From the IMG/VR virus record IMGVR_UViG_3300048589_001332, positions 1 to 35,694 of that record: 35,694 bases of DNA; one strand, given 5' to 3'. Made by a program: the position numbers and the translations under genes. Below the pieces are notes generated by a model. It did not search any database and was not told where the DNA came from. It saw only the letters and a program-made list of their open reading frames with translations. Shown piece by piece: positions 2,900-26,657 of this stretch. Origin of the DNA: a virus. How positions within the stretch are numbered: the first letter of the stretch is position 1; each line of letters opens with the position of its first letter.

Positions 2900-4243
2900 A
2901 TGCAAAAAGGATTTTACATTGTTTCTCAGCTACTTCGCCGCCCCTGGGCGATTGATGCTCGTTTTGCCGAAGCCAACAAAACCATTCCTTACCGCCTGCT
3001 TAACGGCCTGGCTATTGAGTCTGAAAGCGATGCCAAACAAGACAAACGCTCTGTACCCTTTCTGATTCAGGACGCCCGCAAACCTTACTCATATTCTTAT
3101 TCAGACTGGAGCGACGCCCCCGAAGGCAGTATTGCCGTTATTCCCATCATCGGTCCGCTCATGAAGTACGATGTTGAGGAGTGCGGAATGATTACCATCG
3201 GAATGGCCAGCATCGGAAGATCAATCCAGGATGCAGCCGATAATCCAAACATTGCTTCCATCATACTTTATATTGATACTCCTGGTGGAACCGTTGACGG
3301 AACCCAGGCGCTGGCCGAACTTATTAAAAAAGTTGACCAGCAAAAACCGGTTATTGCCTTTGTTGATGGGCAAATGTGCTCAGCTGGCATGTGGATCGGA
3401 TCCCATTCGCGTTACATCATCCTGGAAAACACCAGCACCGAGGCCGGATCCATCGGGGTGTGCTACTCCTTTTTTGATGAGCTCAAACGCCTTGAGGCAG
3501 AAGGCATCACTTTCCATTACATAGTACCTGAAGAGTCGCAGGATAAGAACGCTCCTTTTATGGAAGCGCTTAAAGGCGAATACAAACTTCTTATTGATAC
3601 CGAGCTTAAGCCTCTGGTGTACATGTTCAGGGATGCCGTGCGCAAAGGCCGTGGCGAAGTTTCTGACGAAGCCATGACCGGAAAAGTTTTTTTTGCCGAA
3701 GAGGCCATTAGCCTCAACCTGGCCGATGAAATTGGCAGCTTCCAGCGAGCTGTCGAAAAAGCTTCAGAGCTGGCAAATTCTCCACAATCCAAATCTTCAA
3801 AAAACAAAAAATCAAAACAGATGAAGAAATTAACACATCTCATCGCCCTTTTGGGCGTTGAAGCCATTTCACTGGAAGAAGGTGCAGAATCTGTAGCCTT
3901 TACCATTGAGCAGCTCGAAGCAGCAGAAACAAGCCTTGAGCAGATGCATGGTCAGATTCAGCAGTTAACCACCGACCTGGGCACCGCCAACGATGACCTG
4001 GGTACCGCGCAAGGTACAATCACAAACCTGCAAACTGCTGCCACCACGGCACAAAATCGCATCACCGAACTCGAAGGCACTGTTTCGCAGCAGCAAACCC
4101 GCATCGCTGAACTGGAAGCCGATCCCGAAATCACTACTGTAACAAAGGAAGGTGATGACGATCCGGAAGGCGGAAAAACCACCGATGCTTCGGCTAAGCT
4201 GATGCACAAGAAATTCCTGGCCACCTCCGGCGCGGAAAAATAA
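2900..4243 (+). CDS. S49-family prohead protease with C-terminal scaffold-like domain
   Basis: A 447-residue serine peptidase of the SppA/lambda-C type (S49), expected to process capsid proteins in the prohead. Residues about 75-290 carry the ClpP/SppA fold: GSIAVIPIIGPL, ASIILYIDTPGGTV, the nucleophile region with Ser161 in MCSAGMW, and Lys216 in SQDKNAPF as the likely general base. The GKVFFAEEAISLNLADEIGS motif is typical of the family. Residues 308-447 form an unrelated acidic, coiled-coil tail with repeated LGTAN/LGTAQ, as expected of a scaffold. Met308 could be an internal start (see separate entry). The capsid gene follows 34 nt downstream, the classical order. Protease call is strong; the scaffold call is by analogy with lambda C/Nu3. 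Confidence 0.9.
   Translation: MQKGFYIVSQLLRRPWAIDARFAEANKTIPYRLLNGLAIESESDAKQDKRSVPFLIQDARKPYSYSYSDWSDAPEGSIAVIPIIGPLMKYDVEECGMITIGMASIGRSIQDAADNPNIASIILYIDTPGGTVDGTQALAELIKKVDQQKPVIAFVDGQMCSAGMWIGSHSRYIILENTSTEAGSIGVCYSFFDELKRLEAEGITFHYIVPEESQDKNAPFMEALKGEYKLLIDTELKPLVYMFRDAVRKGRGEVSDEAMTGKVFFAEEAISLNLADEIGSFQRAVEKASELANSPQSKSSKNKKSKQMKKLTHLIALLGVEAISLEEGAESVAFTIEQLEAAETSLEQMHGQIQQLTTDLGTANDDLGTAQGTITNLQTAATTAQNRITELEGTVSQQQTRIAELEADPEITTVTKEGDDDPEGGKTTDASAKLMHKKFLATSGAEK
3821..4243 (+). CDS. Possible nested scaffold protein from internal start in protease gene
   Basis: An in-frame ATG at 3821 begins MKKLTHLIALLGVEAIS at the exact junction between the protease domain and the coiled-coil tail; it would give a 140-residue protein. 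It is preceded by an A-rich stretch ending AATCAAAACAG, closely matching the AATCAAAACTCAG in front of the capsid gene start at 4278. In lambda, scaffold Nu3 is made from an internal start in the protease gene C in the same way. The product is predicted to be mostly helical and acidic. Real expression cannot be shown from sequence; the alternative is that the tail is only used as part of the full-length protein. Confidence 0.5.
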   Translation: MKKLTHLIALLGVEAISLEEGAESVAFTIEQLEAAETSLEQMHGQIQQLTTDLGTANDDLGTAQGTITNLQTAATTAQNRITELEGTVSQQQTRIAELEADPEITTVTKEGDDDPEGGKTTDASAKLMHKKFLATSGAEK

Positions 4244-4277: not shown

Positions 4278-5312
4278 ATGGCTACTAACGCTGTTGACAT
4301 TTCCGCCCTGCAGGCTTACTGCGAGGAGCACGCACCGGAGCTCATAGCCCTGGCCGTGAAAAACAATGAGCTTTTTGAGCAAATGAATGTAATTGCCGGT
4401 GTTACCGACAAATACATTATGACGGCTCTTGAGTTCGAAAAAATCTTCAAACCTTATGCTAAAGCATGGGATCCCGCTGCCGGCGCAAAACTTACCCCGC
4501 GTACCGGATACGTTGAACTCGGACAGGTTGAGCTCGAAGAAGAGCCTCAGGCCTACCGTAAAACCTACCTTGGAAAAGTACTCAAAGGAACTGATCCCGA
4601 TCAGCATCCTTTTGAAAGAGATTTTCTCGAGGGAATTTCCATCCGCGTAAGCAACGACATCAACGATGATCTTGCTTTCTTCGGAGACAAATCGCTGAAA
4701 CAAAATGTTGATCCAGCCATCGCTAAAAGCGTTAAAGCCATCAACGACGGATTTTTCACCATCATTGACAAGGAAGTTACTGCCGGTAACATTTCCGTTG
4801 CCAAGAAAAATCTGATTGCCACCGGTGACATCAACAGCACAAACGCTGTTGCAAAACTCAAAGCTTTCTACCGCAAGGCCTGCACCTACAATCCTGCACT
4901 TCGCAGGCAGAGTGTTAAGCTGTACATCTCTCACGATGTGATGGATGCTTACAACGATAACTATCAGGCGCTGAATGGTGCGCTTCCTTACAACAAAGAA
5001 TTTGAAAAAACCTTCCTCGAAGGATCTGCTCAGCGTTGCGAACTCGTGCCTCTTTCGGCCATGGGTACCTCCAAGCGTATTATGCTGGGACCTCAGAAGA
5101 ATTTCAATATTCTGGTTGACCAGGTTTCTGACCAGGAAAAAGTTCACGTATTCTCCCCCGGCAACCCCAAGGTTGTTGGATTCTATCTTGCCGCTGCAAT
5201 CGGATTCGAGTTTACCACCCTTTCTGCTTTGTGGACCAACGAGGCAAGTGTTGACAGCGACGATTCTGGTTCTGCTTCTGCTTCCGCTTCGGCTTCGGCT
5301 TCTGCCTCCTAG
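4278..5312 (+). CDS. Major capsid protein with Ser-Ala repeat tail
   Basis: A 344-residue protein at the place of the major capsid protein, directly after the protease/scaffold gene. The internal pattern (EHAPELIALAVKNNELFEQM, KLYISHDVMDAYN, NFNILVDQVSD, GFYLAAAIGFEFTT near the end) fits the HK97-type capsid proteins of Bacteroidetes phages. The start has the A-rich leader CAGAAAAAAG. The odd feature is the last 15 or so residues: after EASVDSDD the chain ends in alternating Ser-Gly and Ser-Ala pairs. Related Ser-rich runs appear in the proteins at 5376 and 21051. It is followed immediately by a terminator, which may reduce read-through to later genes. Capsid identity is by position and pattern. 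Confidence 0.82.
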   Translation: MATNAVDISALQAYCEEHAPELIALAVKNNELFEQMNVIAGVTDKYIMTALEFEKIFKPYAKAWDPAAGAKLTPRTGYVELGQVELEEEPQAYRKTYLGKVLKGTDPDQHPFERDFLEGISIRVSNDINDDLAFFGDKSLKQNVDPAIAKSVKAINDGFFTIIDKEVTAGNISVAKKNLIATGDINSTNAVAKLKAFYRKACTYNPALRRQSVKLYISHDVMDAYNDNYQALNGALPYNKEFEKTFLEGSAQRCELVPLSAMGTSKRIMLGPQKNFNILVDQVSDQEKVHVFSPGNPKVVGFYLAAAIGFEFTTLSALWTNEASVDSDDSGSASASASASASAS

Positions 5313-5318
5313 ATTGTG

Positions 5319-5350
5319 AAAGCCGGTTCCGGCCGGCTTTTGCTTTTTTT
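5319..5350 (+). terminator. Terminator after capsid gene
   Basis: Stem AAAGCCGG/CCGGCTTT with a 6-nt loop, followed by TGCTTTTTTT. It lies 7 nt after the capsid stop, before the next gene of the same operon. It is probably partial, setting capsid expression above that of the genes downstream. Confidence 0.75.
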
Positions 5351-5375
5351 GTTCAACCACAAACATTAAAAAACA

Positions 5376-5933
5376 ATGGCATACGATTTAGAAGATATCA
5401 CCAAACCTTCCGGCAGTTCGCCCGGATCGGGTGGTGGCCTCAACAACGAGGTAATAATCATGCTCGAAGATGATGTAGAAACCCTCCCTGCACGTGAAGC
5501 TGACCTGGTGACTATGACAGGCAACATCACTATGAAACAAGGGAAATTTATGCATATCATCTACGCTACTCCCAAAACGCTGGAACCAATGCTTAAAAAG
5601 GTAAAGGGAGACAATCCCGATATTACCGCTTTTGAGGTTGGCCTTAAGTTTTTCCATCCCGACCTTGCTGCAGCAATCCTGTCATTTATGGCAAAACACA
5701 GCTCAGACAGGTTTTTCATTCTTCTCCGCAACTGTGCGCAGCAGCGCCAGTATTTCATTGGCGAGAAGTGTAATCCTTTGATGCTCGAAGAGTTTGAAAG
5801 CATCTGGGGTAAAATCCTTACCGAAGGCAAGGGTACAAACTTCACTTTCCTCGGCCAGCAGACACTGCCATACGCTATTTACTCAGGCACATTAACGCTG
5901 AGCGACAGCAGCGGATCCGGTTCAGGGGTCTGA
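5376..5933 (+). CDS. Putative virion protein (tail tube or head decoration candidate), 185 aa
   Basis: Not firmly recognised. A small globular alpha/beta protein (KFMHIIYATPKTLEPMLKKV, AAAILSFMAKHSSDRFFILL, FTFLGQQTLPYAIYSGTL). Both ends are Ser/Gly-rich: an N-terminal linker PSGSSPGSGGG and a C-terminus SDSSGSGSGV. It lies between the capsid terminator and another strong terminator, so it is a single-gene segment of the head operon, as expected of an abundant structural protein. It starts at an ATG after AAAAAACA. A tail-tube or decoration role is inference from position and size. Confidence 0.7.
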   Translation: MAYDLEDITKPSGSSPGSGGGLNNEVIIMLEDDVETLPAREADLVTMTGNITMKQGKFMHIIYATPKTLEPMLKKVKGDNPDITAFEVGLKFFHPDLAAAILSFMAKHSSDRFFILLRNCAQQRQYFIGEKCNPLMLEEFESIWGKILTEGKGTNFTFLGQQTLPYAIYSGTLTLSDSSGSGSGV

Positions 5934-5952
5934 TTCACTTTTAAGTTAAGTT

Positions 5953-5983
5953 AACGCCCCTCAAAATGGGGCGTTGCTTTTTT
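5953..5983 (+). terminator. Terminator after the 5376 gene
   Basis: Stem AACGCCCC/GGGGCGTT with a 7-nt loop and a GCTTTTTT tail. It ends 18 nt before the ATG of the next gene. Confidence 0.75.
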
Positions 5984-6000
5984 ACAAAACAATTAAAACC

Positions 6001-7011
6001 ATGGCAACGAAAAAAAAATCAACCAGCAAACCCAAAAAAGAGGATGTTCAGCCTGCAGCACTCCAGGATAATGAAATTCCTGCTGATGCCATTGCAAATG
6101 CAGTACCCGCACCATCAGAACCTGAGGATGTTCAGCCTGCAGCACTCCAGGATAATGAAATTCCTGCTGATGCCATTGCAAATGCAGTACCCGCACCATC
6201 AGAACCTGAGGATGTTCCAGAATCAGTAGATACGGATACTGAGGTTCCTGAATATTACGACACTTTTGTAATTCCATTTGTTGATTCTACTGCAAAATGG
6301 GAAGAACTGAGGTATGCACTCAGAAGCATCGCCAAAAATGTAAGCAACAATGCAAAAGTTTGCATCGTTGGCGCTGGATTACCATCGTTTGTTAATCCTG
6401 ATACTGTTACACTTATTGAGTGCGAGCAGGTAAAGGGTATGAGGTTTGCAAAATCCTATGATTCCATTGAAAAGCTGAAAGCAGCCATCAATCATCCCGA
6501 TGTTTCCGAAAGGTTTGTCTACACATACGATGATACCGTTATTCTTCACCAGATTACATCTTTTGAAGATGTTCCTGCAATTGCTGTATCACATATCAAC
6601 CCTGAAAAAATCAGCGATATGGATGGAAGCGCAATCTGGAAAGAGGTTTTGCAAAATACAGTTGGCCGGCTGAAAGCAAATAATCTGCCTATGCTTAACT
6701 ATGAAACACATTTGCCCAGAGTTTTCACAAAAGAAAAGGTTAAATCGACAATTGAAAAATTCGGGTTCCAGAAACGGCCTTATCTTTTCTCAACACTTTA
6801 CTTCAATTCGCTTGAAGAAAAAGATGTGATTCAACTGCTTAAAGATGCTGTTCATATCAAAGCCGACATCCGCAAACCACTCACACCCGAAGAAATTAAG
6901 GCCGAAGTTAAAAACAAAGTATTCCTCAACTACAACGACTCCGGACTTAATGAGCACCTGAAAGACTTCCTGATGGAAACATTCCCTGAAAAGTGCCGCT
7001 TCGAAATTTAA
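6001..7011 (+). CDS. Stealth-like/GT-A-type glycosyltransferase candidate in head operon
   Basis: 336 residues from the ATG at 6001; the frame is open upstream to a TTG at 5974, but that lies in the terminator, so 6001 is used. Residues 1-13 are Lys-rich; residues about 14-69 are two identical 28-residue repeats rich in Ala, Pro and acidic residues. The domain after residue 88 begins FVIPFVDSTAKWEELRYALRSI and contains YTYDDTVI with Asp177-Asp178, then RVFTKEKVKSTIEKFG. These resemble the Stealth/capsular phosphotransferase and GT-A glycosyltransferase pattern (sugar-nucleotide binding start, DxD-type acidic pair). The substrate is unknown; it could modify virion proteins or host glycans. It is the last gene of the head operon. 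Family call is moderate. Confidence 0.6.
   Translation: MATKKKSTSKPKKEDVQPAALQDNEIPADAIANAVPAPSEPEDVQPAALQDNEIPADAIANAVPAPSEPEDVPESVDTDTEVPEYYDTFVIPFVDSTAKWEELRYALRSIAKNVSNNAKVCIVGAGLPSFVNPDTVTLIECEQVKGMRFAKSYDSIEKLKAAINHPDVSERFVYTYDDTVILHQITSFEDVPAIAVSHINPEKISDMDGSAIWKEVLQNTVGRLKANNLPMLNYETHLPRVFTKEKVKSTIEKFGFQKRPYLFSTLYFNSLEEKDVIQLLKDAVHIKADIRKPLTPEEIKAEVKNKVFLNYNDSGLNEHLKDFLMETFPEKCRFEI
6040..6207 (+). repeat. Two identical 84-bp tandem repeats in the glycosyltransferase-like gene
   Basis: Units at 6040-6123 and 6124-6207 are identical, followed by a 10-nt start of a third (GAGGATGTTC). Each encodes 28 residues beginning EDVQPAALQDNEIPADA. Identity at all codon positions indicates a recent duplication, and the unit length keeps the frame. 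Confidence 0.95.
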
Positions 7012-7152: not shown

Positions 7153-7959
7153 ATGTCATCGGCATTAAAAGAATTGACTGACTGGCTTGCTTCAAAACAA
7201 AAGTTTGAACCAGGACTTGAATTATATAAAAAATATGGTACCAACAAAAACCTGATCAGGCGTTTTGATCGTACCGGTAATAATAAATTTAACCGTCAGT
7301 TGCTTTTTGAGCAGATAAAGCAAATGGCTTTAACCCTGGAAGCTTCACAAAAGGTTAAATCTCATAAGCCCAGAATCAGCAAACCGGCAAAGCCTTCAGT
7401 TGTTCTGCCTGCTACTCAACCTCCAGTTAAACTTCCTGAAAAGGTAATTATCTCAAATGAGATACTTCCCACTCCTCATGCAAACCTTAAAGATGATCTG
7501 GAAGGTGTAAATTTCGCGCTGTTGCCCGATTTTCTTAAAAAACTATCAGTAAAAAAAGGAGATCTGTATCGCGAAGCATCAAAGCTGCATCGGGAGTTGG
7601 ATAACTGCAAATCATTTAGCGAGGCTGCAGAGAAGTGCGCAGTTATTTTAAATAATATGCGCGAGAACGATCTCATTTACCAGGAATTAAGACACTTTAT
7701 AAGTCATAATAAGGTTTTGGGGCTTCACCCGGATTTAAAGAAGGAAACCAAAGCTCAGGAACCTGACTACAAAACCCTTCCGGCAGATCAGTTGCTTCGA
7801 AAAATAAGCAGCCGCAGTGCTCAGCTCAGCCGCCTGCGCAAGTGGATGAAGCAAAACAAGGCACACAAGGATTTCTTCCTGAAAAAGGCCGATGCCGAAA
7901 ACCTTGAATCTTTAATCAAAAAAATGAGAGAGCGCCTCCATGCTATTCAAAGTAAGTGA
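7153..7959 (+). CDS. Unknown phage protein, 268 aa, first gene of packaging operon
   Basis: Not recognised. A basic, mainly helical protein: the N-terminal 55 residues (LTDWLASKQKFEPGLELYKK) are followed by a Lys/Pro-rich linker (residues about 70-105, with KPAKPSVVLPATQPPVKLPEK) and a helical C-terminal half that ends in the coiled-coil-like SLIKKMRERLHAIQSK. No signal peptide or membrane segment. It overlaps the next gene by 20 nt, so translation is coupled. Its place in front of the terminase genes suggests a packaging or assembly role, which is inference. Confidence 0.75.
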   Translation: MSSALKELTDWLASKQKFEPGLELYKKYGTNKNLIRRFDRTGNNKFNRQLLFEQIKQMALTLEASQKVKSHKPRISKPAKPSVVLPATQPPVKLPEKVIISNEILPTPHANLKDDLEGVNFALLPDFLKKLSVKKGDLYREASKLHRELDNCKSFSEAAEKCAVILNNMRENDLIYQELRHFISHNKVLGLHPDLKKETKAQEPDYKTLPADQLLRKISSRSAQLSRLRKWMKQNKAHKDFFLKKADAENLESLIKKMRERLHAIQSK

Positions 7960-8524
7960 AATCGGTAAAGATGTTGTTCAGGCAGAACAATCCCGGGATG
8001 TGTTAAAACACAGTGCCGGGCTTAACCGTGTTTACTTATCAGAAAATTACAAGCAGCTGAACGAAAGCCTGTCAGGCATCGTACCAGGTGAAACCTATCA
8101 CCTTGTAAGCCTGGGGCGCTGGAGTATGCATCACCTGCTTTTTCATTTGCTTAAAATTACAGGCCCTGCCATGGTTTATGCCACCACCTGGAGCATAAGC
8201 GAAGATGTAGTAAGGCATTTGGTAGAAGCTCGCAATCAGGGATTGATTAAGGAAATGAGCTTTATATATGATTACCGGGTTCGCAAATACAAGCCTGCAG
8301 CCTATTTCCTGAGCAAAGAGCACTTTACCAGCAAAGTTACCAGCTGCCATGCCAAGGTTACAATTCTGGAAAGCGAAACGCACAGTCTTACCATTATCGG
8401 ATCGGCCAACTACACCCGCAACGATCGTATTGAAGTGGGTGTAATTTTTACCGACAAAGAAACTGCCACTTTTCATAAAAACTGGATAACAACCGAACTC
8501 CAAAACGCCGATGAAGAGCTTTAG
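7940..8524 (+). CDS. Phospholipase D-family (HKD) nuclease-like protein
   Basis: 194 residues with a single PLD catalytic motif near the C-terminus: His137 and Lys139 in CHAKVTILE, followed by the family's GSAN in TIIGSANYTRNDRIEVGVIF. Single-HKD proteins of this size, such as Nuc, act as dimeric nucleases. The N-terminal half (YHLVSLGRWSMHHLLFHLL, PAMVYATTWSISEDVV) fits the PLD alpha/beta fold. No signal peptide is seen, so it acts in the cytoplasm. The gene overlaps both neighbours (20 nt before, 14 nt after) within the packaging operon. A role in DNA processing during packaging, or in degrading competing DNA, is inference. Family call is good; activity is unproven. Confidence 0.75.
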   Translation: MLFKVSEIGKDVVQAEQSRDVLKHSAGLNRVYLSENYKQLNESLSGIVPGETYHLVSLGRWSMHHLLFHLLKITGPAMVYATTWSISEDVVRHLVEARNQGLIKEMSFIYDYRVRKYKPAAYFLSKEHFTSKVTSCHAKVTILESETHSLTIIGSANYTRNDRIEVGVIFTDKETATFHKNWITTELQNADEEL

Positions 8525-8801: not shown

Positions 8802-9367
8802 GCCGCGAATCAGAATTAACATACCAGGAGCTTGTACGTACCATTGAGGCACGTGAAGAAATGAGCCCTAAACAAATTGAGATACTTGAGCGCTGGAAAT
8901 ATGCTCATAAAACCATGAACGATGACTTCCTGATCGGGATGCCACTTGAAGACAAGATCATGGAAAAATTTGGAGTAAGCAGATCCACTGCGCGCAAAGA
9001 TATCCTGGACAGCAACTCTTATTTTCTTACAGAAGATAAGATTGATAAGGACCTGTGGCGCGGGCGTCTGGCTTTCTGGCAGCTGAAAGGCATTGCACTT
9101 GCCTACAAAAACGACAATATGCGCGATTTTAACAGCGGCATCAAAAACCTGTATCTCATTATGGGGCTCGACAGGAAAGACACAAAACTGGATCCCAAAC
9201 TTTTCCAGCAAAATATATACAACTTCTTTTCAGATCCTCGCAGGGTTGGTATCAAGGCTGTTACTGAGCCCGAGGTACTGGAGCTCATTGATGAAATTGA
9301 AGGCATCTCCCCATCCGAAAGAGAACGTTTAATTCAAGAAGCTGACGGCTATCCCGAAAATGAATGA
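8798..9367 (+). CDS. Putative terminase small subunit
   Basis: 189 residues, directly upstream of and overlapping the large terminase by 8 nt. A helix-turn-helix is seen in MEKFGVSRSTARKDILDS (about residues 52-70); the rest is helical (FNSGIKNLYLIMGLD, TEPEVLELIDEIEGISPSERERL). Small terminase subunits recognise the packaging start site and feed DNA to the ATPase. It starts with an ATGA overlap. Its last residues, YPENE, embed the next gene's start; the gene at 23896 ends the same way. The call rests on position plus HTH. Confidence 0.7.
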   Translation: MSRESELTYQELVRTIEAREEMSPKQIEILERWKYAHKTMNDDFLIGMPLEDKIMEKFGVSRSTARKDILDSNSYFLTEDKIDKDLWRGRLAFWQLKGIALAYKNDNMRDFNSGIKNLYLIMGLDRKDTKLDPKLFQQNIYNFFSDPRRVGIKAVTEPEVLELIDEIEGISPSERERLIQEADGYPENE

Positions 9368-10988
9368 TCTGTATCTAAATATTCCGCAGCTGCAGTGCAT
9401 CCTGGTTGACCCCAAGGAGCTTTACGCCCATATGGGACGCGGATTAGGTAAAAGTACCGAAATCATCGCTCATTTAACGGCAAACCGGGTTTACGATATG
9501 CCCAGGGCTGGGTTCCTGCTTATGGGACGCACTTACAAGCAGATTCTTACCAAAACACTTCCGGCAACCGTTGACGGATGGAATAAGCGTGGGTTTGTTG
9601 AAGGCGTTCATTATGTAATCGGAGAAAAACCTCCCTGGGATGTTAAAGCATATGGGGCGCCTCAAAAGGATTACACTCATTTCATTTCATTTTACACCGG
9701 CACCGGCTTTCATCTGGGCAGCCAGGACAGGCCAGGGCTGGTAAACTCACTTACAGTGTGGGGGATTTTTGGAGATGAGTCAAAACTTTTGCTCGAAGAA
9801 AGATTCAAAGAAGACGCCATGCCTACCCTCAGGGGAAATCTCAACGCATTTAAGGATAACCCGCATAACAGATCGGTAGTACTTACTTCGTCCATGCCGC
9901 CTTTGCCCGATGGGCAGTGGCTTTATGAAATGGAAAAGAGGATGAACGAAAAGAAGATACGTGCAATACTCAATCTTTCGTGGTATGTTGAGCAGCTAAA
10001 GGTTGATTACAACGAAGCCGGTGAGTTCTTTAAACCCCGAATTGCCCGCAAAATCAAATTCTTCGCTCAGAAGCTGAATAAATGGCGTTTGGATAAAGAT
10101 GGCCAGGTAATGTATATTGAAGCCAGCAGCCTGGCGAATTTGCATATCCTGAGGCCTGATTATATACTTCAGCAACAGGATATACTCAAGGGTAAGTTTC
10201 GCACCGAAATATTAAACCTAAAGCCTAAACGCGGCGAAAGCTTGTTTTATGCCAACCTTGCGCCACGGCATTATTACACCGATTTTAATTACAACTACCT
10301 GGGAAGGTTCAACCATAAGAATATTGCCGAAAACGACAATTGTCAGGGCGATAACGATTTGCTTAAAACAAATCCTTTGATTATAGGGATGGACTTCGGC
10401 CCCAACTTTAACTGTATTGTTACAGCTCAGAAAATAGAAAGCCTCAGGGAGATCAGGTTCCTGAAGAATCACTGGGTAAAGTCACCCAAGATTATAGACC
10501 ATGTGTGCCAGGATTGGTGCGATTATTACCATACCCATCCTAAACGTGAGTTGTTGTTTTATTACGATAATACCGGGAACAACCGACAGGCAAACAGCGA
10601 CCTTACATTTGCACAGCAAGCCGCTCGGATATTCCGCAAAAACGGATGGGAAGTTACCCAGAAGACCATAGGAGGAGCCAACCCGCAGCACGATAAGAAG
10701 TATCTATTGTGGAACCTGATGTTGCTTGAGCAGGATAAGATCCTTTACAAGGTACGCATAAACGAGTCAAACGCCAGCGATTTGAAGCACAGCATGGAAT
10801 TCGCTCCAGCCAAAGAGGGAAGCAACGGGGAAGTAAAGAAAGACAAAAGCTCTGAAAAGAAAGCATCAATACCCGACGAAGAGGCAACCCACTTAAGTGA
10901 TGCCGCCGATACCATTGTATTTGGAGAGTTCAGAAATGTACTCGATTTATTCGATATGTCAAATTATTACGATATCAGGATAAGGTAG
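9360..10988 (+). CDS. Terminase large subunit (packaging ATPase-nuclease)
   Basis: 542 residues, the normal length for TerL, the motor that pumps DNA into the prohead and cuts it. The ATPase domain shows a Walker A-like GRGLGKST at residues 26-33 and Walker B as WGIFGDE with Asp139-Glu140, then a coupling-type motif VLTSSMP. The C-terminal RNase H-like nuclease shows Asp345 in IIGMDFGPN, Asp403 in FYYDNTGNN and Asp514/Asp517 in HLSDAADTI. It is the last gene of the packaging operon; a 980-bp non-coding region follows. The portal gene is nearly 9 kb away, which is unusual. Confident. Confidence 0.93.
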   Translation: MNDLYLNIPQLQCILVDPKELYAHMGRGLGKSTEIIAHLTANRVYDMPRAGFLLMGRTYKQILTKTLPATVDGWNKRGFVEGVHYVIGEKPPWDVKAYGAPQKDYTHFISFYTGTGFHLGSQDRPGLVNSLTVWGIFGDESKLLLEERFKEDAMPTLRGNLNAFKDNPHNRSVVLTSSMPPLPDGQWLYEMEKRMNEKKIRAILNLSWYVEQLKVDYNEAGEFFKPRIARKIKFFAQKLNKWRLDKDGQVMYIEASSLANLHILRPDYILQQQDILKGKFRTEILNLKPKRGESLFYANLAPRHYYTDFNYNYLGRFNHKNIAENDNCQGDNDLLKTNPLIIGMDFGPNFNCIVTAQKIESLREIRFLKNHWVKSPKIIDHVCQDWCDYYHTHPKRELLFYYDNTGNNRQANSDLTFAQQAARIFRKNGWEVTQKTIGGANPQHDKKYLLWNLMLLEQDKILYKVRINESNASDLKHSMEFAPAKEGSNGEVKKDKSSEKKASIPDEEATHLSDAADTIVFGEFRNVLDLFDMSNYYDIRIR

Positions 10989-12463: not shown

Positions 12464-13390
12464 ATGACAACAAACATATATGAAAGTATAAACGCCCGGA
12501 TTACCGGACTTTTAAACGACAAGCTAAAAGGCTACGAAAAAACATGGTTCAGTGTTAAAGTTGAGCCATCTGCCCGAAATCCTTACACAAATCACTACTA
12601 TGCAATGATTAACAACGTTTTATTGCATATGGGTTTAATTGTGCGCCATGGTTACTACTTAAACCGCTGGATTACTTTCCTGCAGGCTAAACAGCTTGGC
12701 GCAAAAATCAGGAAAGGCAGTTACAGCGAAACTATTGTTTTTACATCGAGCATTTATCTGGATGGTGATGATAAAAATGTAAGCAAAACAGCCAGAGCCA
12801 TAGCCGATGCCGGGGGACAACTGCCCGATGGTTGGAGGCAAATACCATTTTTAAAGGGGTTCAACGTCTTTAATGTTGCCGATGTTGAAGGATTGCCAGC
12901 CGATTGGACCATCCCCGAAAAGATTGAATTTAACAACTCGCAGCGAATTGCCAAAATTGATGAAATTATCAGGCAAACCGGTGCAGTAATTAACGAGACA
13001 AACACAAACCAGCCCTGCTATTATCCGGGTAGAGATCAAATATTTATGCCCATGCGTTGGCAGTTTGACAGCGGAGATACATTTTACTCTGTTTTGTTTC
13101 ATGAACTTGGACATTGGACAGGACACGAAACCCGGCTAAATCGCAAGCTTACACCAAAACAGGAAGATTACGCATTTGAAGAACTTGTTGCAGAACTTAC
13201 CGCGGCTTATTGTTGCGCCCGGCTTAATCTTGCCGGAGAAATAACCAACAATGCAGCCTATATTAAGGGATGGTTAAAAGGCCTTGAAAATGACATGAAG
13301 TTTTTTACCCTTGCCGCTTCACTTGCGCAGAAAGCAGTTAATTACATTTTTGGCGAAGCAGCAGAAAACGCAGAAAGGAGCGCAGCATGA
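12464..13390 (+). CDS. ArdC-like antirestriction protein (zinc metallopeptidase fold)
   Basis: 308 residues. The N-terminal part (YLNRWITFLQAKQLGAKIRKGSYSETIVF in two adjoining segments) matches the ArdC N-terminal ssDNA-binding domain pattern. The C-terminal part carries the zincin motif His213-Glu-Leu-Gly-His217 in LFHELGHWTGHETRL, with a downstream EELVAELTAAY helix for the third metal ligand. ArdC-type proteins protect incoming plasmid or phage DNA from host restriction. It acts in the cytoplasm. Its stop overlaps the SymE-like gene start by 4 nt. Family call is confident; antirestriction activity is known for the family, not shown here. Confidence 0.88.
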   Translation: MTTNIYESINARITGLLNDKLKGYEKTWFSVKVEPSARNPYTNHYYAMINNVLLHMGLIVRHGYYLNRWITFLQAKQLGAKIRKGSYSETIVFTSSIYLDGDDKNVSKTARAIADAGGQLPDGWRQIPFLKGFNVFNVADVEGLPADWTIPEKIEFNNSQRIAKIDEIIRQTGAVINETNTNQPCYYPGRDQIFMPMRWQFDSGDTFYSVLFHELGHWTGHETRLNRKLTPKQEDYAFEELVAELTAAYCCARLNLAGEITNNAAYIKGWLKGLENDMKFFTLAASLAQKAVNYIFGEAAENAERSAA

Positions 13391-15138: not shown

Positions 15139-16339
15139 CCAAAATGAGGCTAAAACAAAACTGCTTCCATTTAAGGTAGGGGCTTTGTTTATGGAGCCAG
15201 GAACCGGCAAAACCCGGGTGGCAGTTGAGCTTGTGAACGCTGTTCAGGACATTGACCTGGTTGTATGGATAGGGCCTTATCGCACAATTCACACTGCCGA
15301 CGACATTCCGACAGTGATGGATGAAATCGGGAAGTGGGGAGGATTTAACGCCGAGGCAATTTATTACGGCATTGAAAGTATTCAAAGCTCAGATAGACTA
15401 TATCTTGAGCTTCGTAGTAAAATGCAGGCTTCAAAATCGAGTTTTATTGTGGTTGATGAAAGCCTGAAAATTAAAAACAGCGAGGCAAAGCGGACGAAAC
15501 GTTTGCATGATCTGGGACAATTATCAACCTATAAGTTGATTCTGAATGGTACCCCGATTACCCGTAACCTGCTAGATATGTGGAGTCAGATGAATTTCCT
15601 TTCACCGCTAATCCTGAATATGGGCCTGGCTGAATTTAAAAACACGTTTTGTGAGTATACCACGCTGACAAAGCGATTCGGGGGGCATAAACTGTACACT
15701 AAGGAATTTATTACCGGATACGAGAATATTGATTACCTGTACAGCCTGATCAGGCATTATGTTTACGAATGCGATCTGAGCCTGCAGATAAAGCAGTATT
15801 ATACTGAGCTTAATTATCAGATGGATGAAGTATCCATGGCAGAATATAATTATCTGAAGGAAAAGTATCTTGATAATGAGATGCTGGTGTGGAAAAACAA
15901 CAATATTTTCCTTGAAATGACACAAAAAATGCAGCATGCATATTGCTGCACTCAGGAAAAATTTGAGGTGCTAAAGAATTTGTTTAAGACTATTCAGGAA
16001 GATAGAACAATCATTTTTTGTAAATACATAGCAAGCCAGAAAGCTTGCCGTAAATATTTTCCGAAGGCCACTGTTTTGAGCTATCAAAAAGAATCGCTTG
16101 GCTTGAATTTACAATACTTAAACAATACTGTTTATTTTGATAAAATATGGGACCTGGCACTTCGCCTTCAGAGCGGGCGCAGAACCTTTCGAACTGGTCA
16201 GGAATATGACTGCAGGTATTATGACCTTACCGGCAACGTTGGACTTGAATCGCTCATTGACCGGAATATTCACAAGAAAATAGGAATCACCGAGTACTTT
16301 AAAAAAGTCAGTAAAGAACAATTAATTGCTGAGTTATGA
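15119..16339 (+). CDS. SNF2-type superfamily 2 helicase/ATPase
   Basis: A 406-residue compact SF2 ATPase. Motif I (Walker A) is EPGTGKT at residues 26-32, motif II is VVDESLKIKNSEAKRTK with Asp113-Glu114, motif III is LILNGTPITRN, and the C-terminal motif VI is RLQSGRRTFRTGQ, the SNF2 arrangement. Many phages carry short SNF2-like proteins of this kind in early regions. It probably moves on double-stranded DNA. The start overlaps the preceding gene, and the stop overlaps the IbrA-like gene (ATGA), so it is one translationally coupled unit. Role in replication, modification or defence is open. Confidence 0.85.
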   Translation: MQTLLSDQNEAKTKLLPFKVGALFMEPGTGKTRVAVELVNAVQDIDLVVWIGPYRTIHTADDIPTVMDEIGKWGGFNAEAIYYGIESIQSSDRLYLELRSKMQASKSSFIVVDESLKIKNSEAKRTKRLHDLGQLSTYKLILNGTPITRNLLDMWSQMNFLSPLILNMGLAEFKNTFCEYTTLTKRFGGHKLYTKEFITGYENIDYLYSLIRHYVYECDLSLQIKQYYTELNYQMDEVSMAEYNYLKEKYLDNEMLVWKNNNIFLEMTQKMQHAYCCTQEKFEVLKNLFKTIQEDRTIIFCKYIASQKACRKYFPKATVLSYQKESLGLNLQYLNNTVYFDKIWDLALRLQSGRRTFRTGQEYDCRYYDLTGNVGLESLIDRNIHKKIGITEYFKKVSKEQLIAEL

Positions 16340-17619
16340 ACGTGTACGAAGCCACAATGAAGCGCATTGCTTACCTGTTCGATGAATTTGAGCAGGTTAT
16401 AATTTCATTCTCAGGTGGGAAGGATAGCGGCGTGATGCTGAATCTGGTGCTTGATTATGCAAAACAGGCCGGGCAGCTATCGAAAGTTGGCGTTTACCAC
16501 ATGGATTATGAGGCACAGTACCAAATGACAACCGATTATGTGGTTCGTACATTTGAAAGCCTTCCGGATGAAGCTGGAAGATATTGGGTTTGCCTGCCAA
16601 TAAAAGCGCAATGCGCTACCAGCATGTTTCAGAATTTCTGGCAGCCATGGAAAAAGGAAGATAAATCCATTTGGTGCCGTGATTTGCCGGACGATTGTAT
16701 CAATGAAGATAACTTTCCTTTCTCATTTGATTATGAAGTTTCGGATTATGAGTTTAATATCCGCTTTGCAAAATCAATATCAGCGAAGAAAAAAACCTGT
16801 TTTTTGATTGGCATTCGCACCCAGGAGAGCCTGCACCGGTATAAAGCTGTAAATAAGTTCAGCGATAAGAATGAATACAAGTCGAAAAACTACACTACGG
16901 TACTCACATACAATTGCATTAACGCCTATCCGATTTATGACTGGCTGGTTGACGATGTGTGGATTGCCAATTACCGGTTTAAATTTGATTACAACCGGCT
17001 TTATGACCTGATGTACAGGGCCGGTTTAAAGCCAGGCCAGATGCGTGTGGCCAGCCCGTTTAATGATTGCGCTACGGAGAGCCTTAAACTTTACAAAGTG
17101 ATAGATGCCAACAACTGGGGTAAGCTGATAGGCAGGGTAAACGGGGTAAACTTTTCAGGGCTTTACGGAGGCACTACAGCCATGGGGTGGAATACCATTA
17201 AAAAGCCCGCTCACTTTACCTGGAAGCAATATATGTACTTTTTGCTTGATACACTTCCTGAAGATACCAGGGAGAACTATCTTCGAAAGTTAAAGGTATC
17301 TTTTGCCTATTGGCTTGAGAAAGGTGGCGCTTTGCCTGTTGATGTTGCCAATGAACTGGATGGTAATAATATTGAATTTGAGGACCTGGGAGCTCCGGAG
17401 AATAACCGGAATTATACAAGCGACTACCGGGTGATAAAGTTCAAGGAGTATCTTGATGAGATTGATATCCGAAACCCGAACTTACTGCCAACTTACAAAA
17501 GGATGTGCATCGCCATCATGAAGAATGATACAGCCTGCAAAACGCTCGGATTCGGCCTTACAAAGCAGGAATTGGAGCGCAGATCGAATATAATGACTAA
17601 ATATAAAGCGTTGTTATGA
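16336..17619 (+). CDS. IbrA-like PAPS reductase-family protein
   Basis: 427 residues with the PP-loop SGGKDS at 26-31 (VIISFSGGKDSGVMLNLVLDY), the hallmark of the PAPS reductase/ATP-pyrophosphatase family that adenylates a substrate. Further family segments are FLIGIRTQESLHRY and NAYPIYDWLVDDVWIAN. Length and C-terminal extension fit IbrA/DUF3440 proteins rather than cysteine biosynthesis enzymes. In E. coli, IbrA together with the ParB-like IbrB controls prophage-encoded genes. The next gene here is IbrB-like and overlaps by ATGA, reproducing that pair. The substrate and reaction are unknown; DndC of DNA phosphorothioation belongs to the same superfamily. Confidence 0.83.
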   Translation: MNVYEATMKRIAYLFDEFEQVIISFSGGKDSGVMLNLVLDYAKQAGQLSKVGVYHMDYEAQYQMTTDYVVRTFESLPDEAGRYWVCLPIKAQCATSMFQNFWQPWKKEDKSIWCRDLPDDCINEDNFPFSFDYEVSDYEFNIRFAKSISAKKKTCFLIGIRTQESLHRYKAVNKFSDKNEYKSKNYTTVLTYNCINAYPIYDWLVDDVWIANYRFKFDYNRLYDLMYRAGLKPGQMRVASPFNDCATESLKLYKVIDANNWGKLIGRVNGVNFSGLYGGTTAMGWNTIKKPAHFTWKQYMYFLLDTLPEDTRENYLRKLKVSFAYWLEKGGALPVDVANELDGNNIEFEDLGAPENNRNYTSDYRVIKFKEYLDEIDIRNPNLLPTYKRMCIAIMKNDTACKTLGFGLTKQELERRSNIMTKYKALL

Positions 17620-18236
17620 AATGTTTAATCTCAGATTGGTCGTGTGTTTACCATGCTTGTATGAGTGATGATTGTCAGAAAGAAGTTGTACTTTCACAAG
17701 GGTTTGAATTAGGGAAAAGTAATTGCAAAAAAATGAAATCACCTGTTTATAATGTTATTCCAGTGCCTGTAGAAAAGATACAGGCCAATAGTTATAACCC
17801 GAATGCCGTGGCGCCTCCTGAAATGAAGCTGCTTTATCAGTCGATCAAAGAGGATGGCTATACCATGCCGATAGTCTGCTATTACTTGTCAGATATTGAC
17901 AAATATGAGATTGTTGATGGCTTCCACCGTTTTACTGTTATGCTTAAACATCGCGACATTTATGAGCGCGAAAACGGCCTTATGCCGGTGGTTGTAATTG
18001 AAAAAGACATCAGCAACCGCATGGCCTCCACCATCAGGCATAATCGTGCCCGTGGTTCGCATGATATTGACCTGATGGTTAACATTGTTTCTGAGCTAAC
18101 TAAATCGGGCATGAGCGATGCCTGGATAATGAAACACATTGGCATGGATGCCGATGAGTTGTTAAGATTAAAACAAATATCTGGCCTTGCAGAACTTTTT
18201 AAAGACAAAGAATTTTCAAACTCACAAGAAAAATGA
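17616..18236 (+). CDS. IbrB-like ParB-family protein
   Basis: 206 residues. The ParB/sulfiredoxin-like domain starts near residue 43 (VIPVPVEKIQANSYNPNAVA), with KSI/QSIKEDGYTMPIV, the ParB box YEIVDGFHRF and a downstream HNRARGSHDID. This is the IbrB pattern. The start used overlaps the IbrA stop (ATGA); it adds a Cys-rich N-terminus (Cys3, Cys10, Cys15, Cys20, Cys37). An alternative ATG at 17733 has a better A-rich leader (AATTGCAAAAAA) and would begin just before the ParB domain. The protein presumably binds nucleotide and/or DNA and acts with the IbrA-like partner. Confidence 0.82.
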   Translation: MKCLISDWSCVYHACMSDDCQKEVVLSQGFELGKSNCKKMKSPVYNVIPVPVEKIQANSYNPNAVAPPEMKLLYQSIKEDGYTMPIVCYYLSDIDKYEIVDGFHRFTVMLKHRDIYERENGLMPVVVIEKDISNRMASTIRHNRARGSHDIDLMVNIVSELTKSGMSDAWIMKHIGMDADELLRLKQISGLAELFKDKEFSNSQEK

Positions 18237-19720: not shown

Positions 19721-21054
19721 TGAAAACACTTGAATTAAAAGAAGGTGTAGCCGGTGTGCTTCCAAAATCGAAAGGCACCTATAAGATTGAAGGCAATAAT
19801 TCAAATCCGAAGCCTTCCGGCGTTTCTAACACCACTGTTAAAAAACTGAATAAAAGCATCCAGAATTTTGCTGAGGACACCAAAGGAACAAGTGTTAAAG
19901 ACGTTAAGATATCAGTTTGGGGTCGCGACAATCTGTTCCCCCAGCATCTTATGAGCTTATACCAGAATAATATTTTCCCAGGGCTCATGGATTTTAAGGT
20001 GGATATGCTTTACAGCCTGGGGGCTCAGATTTATGAAAAAAAGGTTGTTGGTAATCAGTTGGTTGAAATCCCCGTAATTGATTATGAGATTGAAGACTGG
20101 CTTGAAAGCTGGGATGCAAAGAATTTTATTGCCGATCAGTTTACCGACTTCGTGTGGACAGAAAACCTGTTTACACAAATAGTGGTAAACAAAACCAAGA
20201 TTCAGCCTATTCGCTCTCTTAAGCATGTCAATACAGAAGAATGCCGCCTTAGCATAATGAATAATAAAGGCATTTCGGAGAAAGTTATGATGGGCAACTG
20301 GACTGATAAAAAAGACTATGTTCCGGTTGACAGATGGGATCCGCTTAAGCCCGAAAAGCATGGTGTGTATATGATACACGCGAAAAAGAAAAGTTACGGA
20401 TTCAGGTATTATAACTACCCGGTTTATATTGGGGTAACTTACAAGTGGCTGCCGCTGGCAAATGAAATACCTACCTTCCACCTTTCGCGGCTTCAGAATT
20501 CAATAAATGCGAAGTTTCATATTAAGATACCTGTTTCTTCGCTGCAGGCACTTAAGGAACTGTACAACTGGAATAAGGAGCAAATTGACAAATGGCTGGA
20601 AGATAAGCTCACAGAAATTGACAATATGCTGGCCGGTGCCGAAAATGCCGGGAAAGTTTTTTATACTTTCAAAACAACCGATGCAAACGGCAAGGAGTTG
20701 AATGGCTGGGAGATTATTGAGCTTAAAAACTCAGAAAAGGAAATGAGCGAAGCCAACCTGAGGCTGTTTAACGAAACCAATCAGGCCATTACCAGCGCGG
20801 TACAGGTGCAGCCATCGCTGGCCTGTATACAGCTTGGAGAAAAAATGAGCTCAGGATCTGAAGTACTCAACAGCTACAATCTGCATATTAAAACCCGTAC
20901 CACCATTGCGCGCAACCTGGTGATGGACAACATTAACCGGGCTATAAGATTAAACTGGCCCAAAAAAAGGGTTTATCTTAAGATTGTTGATGCGGTACTG
21001 GTTAAACAGGAAGATAACAAATCGGGGTTACAGGAGCCTTCAAATAGCCAATGA
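19720..21054 (+). CDS. Portal protein
   Basis: 444 residues from the ATG at 19720 (another ATG 6 nt upstream is possible). Portal-type pattern: an N-terminal disordered stretch, then VWGRDNLFPQHLMSLYQNN, FKVDMLYSLGAQIY, a central region with a Trp/Tyr-rich stretch, and the C-terminal helical part with ITSAVQVQPSLACIQLGEKM. The length is at the low end of portal proteins but normal for Bacteroidetes phages. The portal forms the dodecameric vertex ring through which DNA passes. It overlaps the next gene by ATGA. It lies far from TerL, separated by the accessory island. Confident by pattern and context. Confidence 0.8.
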   Translation: MKTLELKEGVAGVLPKSKGTYKIEGNNSNPKPSGVSNTTVKKLNKSIQNFAEDTKGTSVKDVKISVWGRDNLFPQHLMSLYQNNIFPGLMDFKVDMLYSLGAQIYEKKVVGNQLVEIPVIDYEIEDWLESWDAKNFIADQFTDFVWTENLFTQIVVNKTKIQPIRSLKHVNTEECRLSIMNNKGISEKVMMGNWTDKKDYVPVDRWDPLKPEKHGVYMIHAKKKSYGFRYYNYPVYIGVTYKWLPLANEIPTFHLSRLQNSINAKFHIKIPVSSLQALKELYNWNKEQIDKWLEDKLTEIDNMLAGAENAGKVFYTFKTTDANGKELNGWEIIELKNSEKEMSEANLRLFNETNQAITSAVQVQPSLACIQLGEKMSSGSEVLNSYNLHIKTRTTIARNLVMDNINRAIRLNWPKKRVYLKIVDAVLVKQEDNKSGLQEPSNSQ

Positions 21055-22079
21055 TAATAAAAAGTATAGCAGATCTTATCACTCACGTGGGGGGTGTACT
21101 GCAAGGGAAAGATTTTGGCGACATAAAACCATCGGTTGAGTGGGCTGAAGAAGAAATGCTGATTCCGGCCATCGGGCAGGAAATGTATGATTTGCTGGAA
21201 TCCTATCTTGAGGATGGCAGTGGATCGGGTTCGGCTTCTGCTTCCGGATCGGGTTCTGGTTCCGGATCTGCAACATCGTACCAGGATGCGCTTAAACTTG
21301 CGCCCAAATGCGCGCGCGTGGTTGCTCATTTTGCTATGTTTGACTATACTACTATCAGCGATAGTAAAGTAACGGCACAGGGGCTGCAGATTGTTGAGAC
21401 GAACACTCATAAAACTGCTTATGAGTATCAGAAACGCGACCGTAAAAAATATCACGGTGAGAAAGCCGATAAAGCCCTGGACAGCCTGCTGCTATTTCTT
21501 GAGAACAATAAAACAAAATACCCCGAATGGGCGAATAATGCAGCGGTTTACACAGAAACCAGGAAACTGATTATCAATAACACTCAGCAGTTTAATGAGT
21601 GTGTTGATATTGGAGGCTCGCGGCGAACTTACATGACTTTGAGGGGATTTATAAAGGATGTGGAGCAAATGCACGTACTTCCAGCCCTGGGTGTTACAAT
21701 ATACCAGGCGCTGAAGTCGCATATACTTTCTGGCGGCAACTCGGCAAACTACAAACAACTACATGATTTACTGGTACCGGCAGTGGCGAATATGGCCATT
21801 GCCGATGCCTTGCCGTCAATTATCTTCCGTATTGCCGGCGACACCATCACTACAGCGACTTACAATCCTTTCTCTGAAAAGGAAAAAGAGCAGATTACAA
21901 AAACAGTGAACAGCATTATTGCTTCGCGTTTGCAGAAAGGAGCCAACTACCTGAAGCTTGCAGTTGACTTTGTAAAAGCCACTCCTGATCTTTTTGCCAT
22001 TTCGCCTTACGCTGCCACTACCGAAGCGGAAGGTGGTTACAATAACTCGGAAGACAAAAAACATTTTGTTGGATTTTAA
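21051..22079 (+). CDS. Head-tail connector candidate (DUF6712-like) with Gly/Ser/Ala linker
   Basis: 342 residues, directly after the portal. Two halves look homologous: residues about 5-55 (EMLIPAIGQEMYDLLESY) and 190-225 (MHVLPALGVTIYQALKSHIL), each followed by helices of similar pattern. In the first half the loop after the long helix is expanded to a run of about 20 Gly, Ser and Ala residues (residues 56-74); the second half has only a short SGGNSAN there. Similar runs end the capsid protein. The family resembles DUF6712 of Bacteroidetes phages; an adaptor/connector role is inferred from its place after the portal. Confidence 0.65.
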   Translation: MIIKSIADLITHVGGVLQGKDFGDIKPSVEWAEEEMLIPAIGQEMYDLLESYLEDGSGSGSASASGSGSGSGSATSYQDALKLAPKCARVVAHFAMFDYTTISDSKVTAQGLQIVETNTHKTAYEYQKRDRKKYHGEKADKALDSLLLFLENNKTKYPEWANNAAVYTETRKLIINNTQQFNECVDIGGSRRTYMTLRGFIKDVEQMHVLPALGVTIYQALKSHILSGGNSANYKQLHDLLVPAVANMAIADALPSIIFRIAGDTITTATYNPFSEKEKEQITKTVNSIIASRLQKGANYLKLAVDFVKATPDLFAISPYAATTEAEGGYNNSEDKKHFVGF

Positions 22080-26087: not shown

Positions 26088-26657
26088 ATGAAAACAACTG
26101 AAATTACAGTTGCCAATGTCAACCAGGTTGACATCACCATCATCAAAAACGGTGAAAAAAGAGTAGCCGTTCGGCCAATTTGCGATGCACTCGGCATCGA
26201 CTTCTCTGCTCAACTTCAAAGGCTAAAAAGAGATGAAATTCTAAGTTCAACTGTGGTTACCATAACCACGGTTGGAGCCGATAAAAAGGGCCGGGAAATG
26301 GTAACAATCCCTTTTAAATTTGTGTTTGGTTGGTTGTTTACTATTGACACATCTAAAGTAAGGGAAGATGCAAAAGATGCAGTTCTTAATTATAAACTGC
26401 AGTGTTACGATGCACTTTACAATTACTTTACTCGTCACGAGGAGTTTCTTGAGCACAGGCAAAGCCTGATTGATGCCCGCCTGGCCGAATACGATGCCGC
26501 CCGCAGCGATTTCAGGGTAGCCAAAGAAAAGGTAAACGAGGCACGCAAAGCCTTAGACGAGGCTCGCGCCATAACCGAAGCCGAATATTTTGAGAACAAA
26601 CGGCAGATGGTTATTGATTTTCCGGCAGAGCAAGGAAAGGAGGCTGGCAATGAATAA
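26088..26657 (+). CDS. Phage antirepressor (P22_AR_N domain)
   Basis: 189 residues. Residues about 14-115 match the P22 antirepressor N-terminal domain: VAVRPICDALGIDFSAQLQR, LKRDEILSSTVVTI, and VFGWLFTIDTSKVREDAKDA then LQCYDALYNYF. The C-terminal 70 residues form a coiled coil (RLAEYDAARSDFRVAKEKVN). Such proteins inactivate the repressor and trigger induction or immunity changes. The gene has a real Shine-Dalgarno site (AGGAGA, 8 nt before ATG), unlike most genes here. An ATG-TAA lies directly before the start and is ignored. It is led by the structured RNA described above. Confidence 0.87.
   Translation: MKTTEITVANVNQVDITIIKNGEKRVAVRPICDALGIDFSAQLQRLKRDEILSSTVVTITTVGADKKGREMVTIPFKFVFGWLFTIDTSKVREDAKDAVLNYKLQCYDALYNYFTRHEEFLEHRQSLIDARLAEYDAARSDFRVAKEKVNEARKALDEARAITEAEYFENKRQMVIDFPAEQGKEAGNE

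Follow-up and report, generated by a model that had tools for sequence, protein, structure and literature searches.

In a viral DNA stretch of 35,694 bases (record IMGVR_UViG_3300048589_001332, positions 1 to 35,694, hereafter the window), we identified a block of head genes that probably forms a virion-decoration module, in which a Stealth-family enzyme would sugar-modify the C-terminal serines of the major capsid protein (MCP) and of a tail protein. The window encodes an integrase, an S49 head protease, a capsid, a terminase, a portal and a tape-measure protein. Judging from sequence comparison, related Stealth enzymes appear to be repeatedly accompanied by matching serine ends in phages whose hosts belong to two phyla. 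The head block contains the following features.

Positions 2900 to 4243, plus strand: S49-type head maturation protease, which opens the head block.
Positions 4278 to 5312, plus strand: MCP (PHROG 1623 head protein), with a C-terminal Ser-Gly/Ser-Ala tail at 5265-5309.
Positions 5265 to 5309, plus strand: acceptor-like Ser-x tail of the MCP, SGSASASASASASAS, a six-base repeat with synonymous variation.
Positions 5376 to 5933, plus strand: probable major tail (tube) protein, by a weak predicted-fold match, with C-terminal SDSSGSGSGV at 5901-5930.
Positions 6001 to 7011, plus strand: Stealth-family (GT-A fold) putative sugar-1-phosphate transferase, from Pfam, PHROG, profile and structure model.
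Positions 6040 to 6217, plus strand: perfect 84-base-pair (28-residue) tandem duplication, EDVQPAALQDNEIPADAIANAVPAPSEP twice, in a Pro/Glu-rich linker from the basic N-terminus to the catalytic domain.

In the proposed mechanism, a cytoplasmic Stealth-family GT-A enzyme would be produced along with the capsid and tail proteins. Using a nucleotide sugar as donor, it would place hexose or hexose-1-phosphate on serines of flexible C-terminal ends. The acceptors would be the MCP and the probable major tail protein encoded next to it; the sugars would come to lie on the surface of the assembled virion, and the long Ser-Ala repeat would provide more acceptor sites on the capsid. The activity, donor, linkage, acceptor residues, surface exposure and benefit are what we infer from the sequences, the fold, the conserved catalytic residues and the co-occurrence presented below. 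Since the enzyme family makes sugar-1-phosphate bonds, the linkage may be a phosphodiester; by analogy, the bond may be a sugar-1-phosphate diester, as in the family, or the product of plain glycosyl transfer.

The Stealth-family enzyme

The original prediction had called the protein encoded behind the tail protein Stealth/GT-A-like, an identity confirmed by Stealth_CR2, profile matches, predicted fold and catalytic residues. The gene likely starts at the ATG at 6001 (codon 2 is GCA at 6004) instead of at 5974. Pfam Stealth_CR2 matches the window enzyme with E=4.9e-8 and 33.6 bits, which lies under the curated cut-off of 39.4; the domain is matched by 10 of 12 members of the enzyme family, and in one of the related loci (L044; loci carry L numbers throughout) it lies above that cut-off. 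The window enzyme also matches PHROG 7999, a family of unknown function. Against the PDB, a profile of the 12 members matched zebrafish/human GlcNAc-1-phosphotransferase (GNPTAB, GNPT) at E=2.6e-15 and M. tuberculosis CpsY at E=2e-8. Structure prediction, the check that had been set in advance for the GT-A fold, returned a GT-A/Stealth fold: the AlphaFold model (predicted local distance difference test, pLDDT, 76; predicted template modelling score 0.80) aligned over its full length (residues 1-254) with GNPT at Z 19.4 and matched CpsY at Z 17.9, while the next GT-A families scored about 11.7.

The catalytic residues of GNPT, D408 and H956 (PMC11418123), fall on D177 and H236 of the window enzyme (335-residue numbering, without Met), with the Asp-Asp pair encoded at 6529-6534 and the catalytic His codon at 6709-6711. 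The counterpart of the conserved Asp in CpsY, an enzyme that acts on glucan with uridine diphosphate N-acetylglucosamine (UDP-GlcNAc), is D324 (PMC10668966). Both the Asp-Asp and the His of an HxP motif are kept in 11 of the 12 family members (the window and 10 others) and lost in L050. At the CR1 motif, IDVVYT(F/W), the window has YDTFVIPF, L045 has FDVVYAI and L047 has LDVVYVL. FLNYND, encoded at 6922-6939, is a candidate for CR4, whose Asn lies in CLND, and the CR3 Arg (R986/R419) could not be aligned.

The 84-base-pair duplication in the linker is either recent or an effect of assembly. A search of viral contigs for close relatives with the enzyme alone returned none, or already-known contigs only, and when the enzyme profile was run against genomes across the phylum, no further full-length phage-type copy came up, the other hits being weak partial matches that are probably host Stealth genes. 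L044 (4215-6341, minus strand) encodes a natural GT2-Stealth domain fusion of 709 amino acids, adjoining capsid genes.

Serine-rich ends of the capsid and tail proteins

The MCP ends in DSDDSGSASASASASASAS, with SASAS as its terminal residues, and the 5376 protein ends in SGSGV. The third Ser-rich tract, GSGSGSASASGSGSGSGS, lies near residues 56-76 of the connector.

Positions 21051 to 22079, plus strand: DUF6712 head-tail connector with a Gly/Ser/Ala insertion loop at about 21216-21278; its role in the module is uncertain.

All three tracts named in the original prediction are thus present. The proposal drawn from them, that Ser tails serve virion decoration, is supported for the capsid and the probable tail protein by enzyme fold and co-occurrence, and is not supported for the connector: the insertion is found in the window only and is absent from three homologues, and we dropped the loop as a conserved acceptor for this reason. 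At least five serines within the last 12 residues were found only in the MCP and the 5376 protein among 38 likely window genes. Residue shuffles within proteins gave P=0.0015 for two such ends arising by chance.

Codon usage in the MCP tail is mixed (TCT/TCC/TCG and GCT/GCC), and the tail is therefore not a pure DNA microsatellite. The serine codons of the repeat are TCN only in the window and alternate between TCN and AGY in L023, an 89%-identical relative; in L022 the unit spans 12 bases (SESV) and in L049 six (SA). Since these repeats differ in DNA, it is the protein pattern, Ser at every second residue, that has been retained.

The 5376 protein was modelled with pLDDT 73, and its Ser-rich end is disordered there, with pLDDT below 50. 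Structural matches to the model are weak (Foldseek E 4e-3, prob 0.99) and consistently fall among tail-tube, Hcp and baseplate proteins, which makes 5376, on the model, the probable major tail protein. The second acceptor would then probably be the major tail protein and not the connector.

Co-occurrence of enzyme and serine ends

We collected relatives through capsid or enzyme similarity, without using the tails. The capsid family occurred in 32 of 393 Bacteroidales genomes and the enzyme profile matched 12 of the 393, several of them weakly. At least three serines in the last 10 MCP residues were present at 7 of 12 loci with a Stealth gene and at 1 of 37 without (p=7e-5). When loci carrying any glycosyltransferase in the position of the Stealth gene (the slot) were counted together, Ser within the last four residues of both proteins was found at 9/12 loci with a glycosyltransferase versus 2/25 without (Fisher p=8e-5), and the association stayed when the window was left out (p=2e-4). 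Co-occurrence of tails and enzyme in related phages, which had been named in advance as a second check, therefore holds, and it extends to unrelated actinophages (see below).

MCPs of relatives that lack a glycosyltransferase also lack the Ser tail. L116 and L123, which have Ser ends without a Stealth gene, carry GT2 genes in the slot, and ten extra genes from Ser-negative loci included no glycosyltransferase. In L050, the Stealth protein lacks the Asp-Asp and the His, and neither the MCP nor the tail protein ends in Ser. The Stealth gene lies directly behind the MCP and tail protein genes in the window, L021, L023, L046, L049, L050 and L060. The slot of several phages with a Stealth gene additionally holds GT2, GT4 or methyltransferase genes, which suggests later extension or capping of a first sugar. 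When the MCP end was compared with the tail-protein end of the same phage, their similarity (p=0.03 with the Stealth gene, 0.12 without) was suggestive only.

A strict coupling of the enzyme to a long MCP Ser tail was rejected because of L021. From the sequences, Ser at or near the C-terminus of both proteins fits better as the shared feature, of which the long Ser-x repeat would be a special case. L021, the only close relative with a Ser-tail-less MCP, encodes upstream of its head protease (7402-7899) a protein with the C-terminus TSGSSSGSTA. At L005, L007, L024 and L025, which have a related MCP and no Stealth gene, long C-terminal extensions, Ig-like by eye, replace the Ser tails. At L130 (10107-10688) and L114 (9788-10444), a phosphoribosyltransferase-like gene is located in the interval from the tail protein to the terminase.

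PHROG-7999-like genes were also found in actinophages. In five lineages with a Stealth gene, the MCP and major tail protein end in GSGS/VGSV (Fionnbharth), SSGS/VVGS (Gaia), NAGS/GFGS (OneUp), GTAS/AASS (Yvonnetastic) and GSTS/CVAS (TurkishDelight). Cluster K relatives without the gene have the MCP/tail ends SGE/VAA, DGE/IAV and VTP/IAV; homologous tail proteins of actinophages lacking the Stealth gene end in IVAA or VIAV, and five other actinophages have no double Ser end. Overall, the double Ser end is present in 5/6 actinophages with the Stealth gene and 0/8 without (p=0.003), an association seen at the level of single residues with no repeat involved. Yvonnetastic and TurkishDelight also encode conventional glycosyltransferases, so the Stealth gene there need not be the acting one.

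Freeman et al. reportedly described in 2023 that mycobacteriophages, among them Che8 of cluster F1, glycosylate their virions. The MCP and tail protein of Che8 end in KTGS and SDGS. Glycans are reported on the Che8 MCP (PMC11256854), and mycobacteriophage glycans are reported to sit at capsid and tail-tube C-termini (PMC12619734). In phage FF47 (L156, 27-1019 and 2911-3552), the ends of the MCP and of the major tail protein, GGGGGEGEGESE and GGGGGEGEGEGE, match each other in an unusual way and may, by their sequence, be a further C-terminal tag on two proteins.

Competing explanations and known systems

Several observations weigh against virion decoration by the Stealth enzyme. The Ser-end metrics were fixed after part of the data had been seen, and loci within clades are related to each other. 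A tree-based independent-pairs test gave 3.1 pairs in the same direction and 0 opposite, which agrees in direction and is too small to reach significance (p about 0.25); presence of the enzyme requires about eight changes on the tree. L116 and L123 were inspected because of their tails, a bias that the ten-gene control answers only partly. In L021 the Stealth gene is intact, yet the MCP and tail-protein ends lack Ser; L060 has Ser near both ends and not at them; L112 has Ser at both ends and no glycosyltransferase within the interval read. Rasputia, which has the Stealth gene, carries a Ser end on the tail protein only, and in Gaia, OneUp, Yvonnetastic and Rasputia the Stealth gene is distant from the head genes. 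The tail-protein identity of 5376 depends on a weak fold match. Finally, the window enzyme has Tyr where the NDD motif of CpsY has the Asn that contacts GlcNAc (PMC10668966), and the donor may therefore not be UDP-GlcNAc.

Characterised bacterial Stealth proteins are known to act on capsular or cell-surface polysaccharides. In one rival reading, the phage enzyme likewise modifies a polymer on the host surface, be it capsule, O-antigen or teichoic-acid-like, so as to exclude superinfecting phages or bring about lysogenic conversion, and has nothing to do with the Ser tails. This would match the cellular role of the family, including the action of CpsY on glucan, and the integrase in the window means that the phage may be temperate. 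We consider it unlikely, however, since the gene lies inside the late head block directly behind the MCP and tail protein in the window and six relatives, and in phages from two host phyla its presence goes together with the C-terminal residues found on two virion proteins that are unrelated to each other. A similarly low probability attaches to the idea that the Ser/Gly/Ala tails are merely flexible or slippage-grown low-complexity ends, whose association with glycosyltransferases would come from shared ancestry and a post hoc metric. The six-base repeat of the window tail, the fast change in tail length and the non-significant tree-aware test would all fit, whereas the same Ser periodicity arises from different codon repeats in the 89%-identical relative, the association recurs in the repeat-less actinophage ends, and the residue shuffles speak against a chance pair of such tails.

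Phages are known to use GT-A enzymes on hypermodified DNA, and the GT2 part of the L044 fusion has a weak TAGT match (E=0.006). A target in phage DNA or nucleotides instead of protein is nevertheless very improbable: a base-hypermodification enzyme was not found among the window proteins scanned, and DNA modification does not predict matching capsid and tail C-termini. Least probable of all, in our estimate, is that bare Ser-rich ends act alone, for instance by binding mucus or serving as steric spacers. Such tails are flexible, and that of the 5376 model is disordered, but their link with glycosyltransferases would be left unexplained and no binding domain was seen in them. The suggestions in the original prediction that tails or glycans aid attachment to mucus or shield the virion found no direct support in the analysis.

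Glycosylation of the virion by the Stealth enzyme remains the reading that we favour. To our knowledge, virion glycosylation is documented in few phages, and it would here extend from actinophages to Bacteroidota phages. Known relatives of the Stealth enzyme take part in capsule synthesis or in the tagging of lysosomal proteins, and the phage enzyme would bring the family into virion biology; the unannotated PHROG 7999 (the 'hypothetical' gp6 of Fionnbharth) would be assigned a function. A rule combining a glycosyltransferase with C-terminal Ser on the capsid and tail protein would allow prediction across phage genomes. We suggest only tentatively the more specific possibility that phage Stealth enzymes phosphoglycosylate virions through a sugar-1-phosphate phosphodiester on C-terminal capsid and tail serines, with the double C-terminal Ser as a portable acceptor tag that predicts glycosylation from sequence. 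Cultured phages (Fionnbharth, Gaia, OneUp, Yvonnetastic and TurkishDelight) offer a direct test.

The Stealth gene had been described as the last of its operon; in fact it is followed on the same strand by genes at 7153, 8511 and 8798, by the large terminase (9360-10988) and by a conserved neighbour.

Positions 7940 to 8524, plus strand: PLD-like protein, a conserved neighbour downstream of the glycosyltransferase slot.

Elsewhere in the window are an ArdC-like anti-restriction gene (12464-13390) and a DUF3440/PAPS-reductase-like gene followed by a ParB-like gene (16336-18236), an order known from IbrA/IbrB-type prophage pairs. A DUF4468 gene (25349) and a gene with a P22 Ant-type anti-repressor N-terminal domain (26088-26657) lie between endolysin and tape measure.

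Among known systems, streptococcal serine-rich repeat adhesins (GspB; PMC5578698, PMC7661464) also carry Ser-x repeats, to which dedicated glycosyltransferases add sugars in the cytoplasm. The tails considered here are 10-30 residues long and belong to virion instead of cell-wall proteins, and GtfA/GtfB and accessory Sec genes were not found in a Pfam scan of window proteins that left some small open reading frames unscanned. With the Stealth/GlcNAc-1-phosphotransferase family (GNPTAB, CpsY) the window enzyme shares the GT-A fold, CR2, Asp-Asp, the catalytic His and, as a candidate, a CR4-like end; it differs in its minimal 250-residue core without spacer domains, its weak CR1, the replaced NDD Asn, its probable protein acceptor and its being phage-borne. 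A literature search found no description of Stealth proteins in phage virions or of protein-directed viral Stealth activity. The closest parallel is mycobacteriophage virion glycosylation (Freeman et al. 2023, as cited in PMC12619734, PMC11256854 and PMC11600133), with phage-encoded glycosyltransferases, modified capsid and tail-tube C-termini, and Ser ends as in Che8. Mycobacteriophages use conventional glycosyltransferases as annotated, whereas the window has a Stealth-type enzyme, long capsid Ser-x repeats, a gene inside the head block and a Bacteroidota host. Relative to that system, what is most likely new is the Stealth-type enzyme, the long Ser-x repeats and another host phylum.
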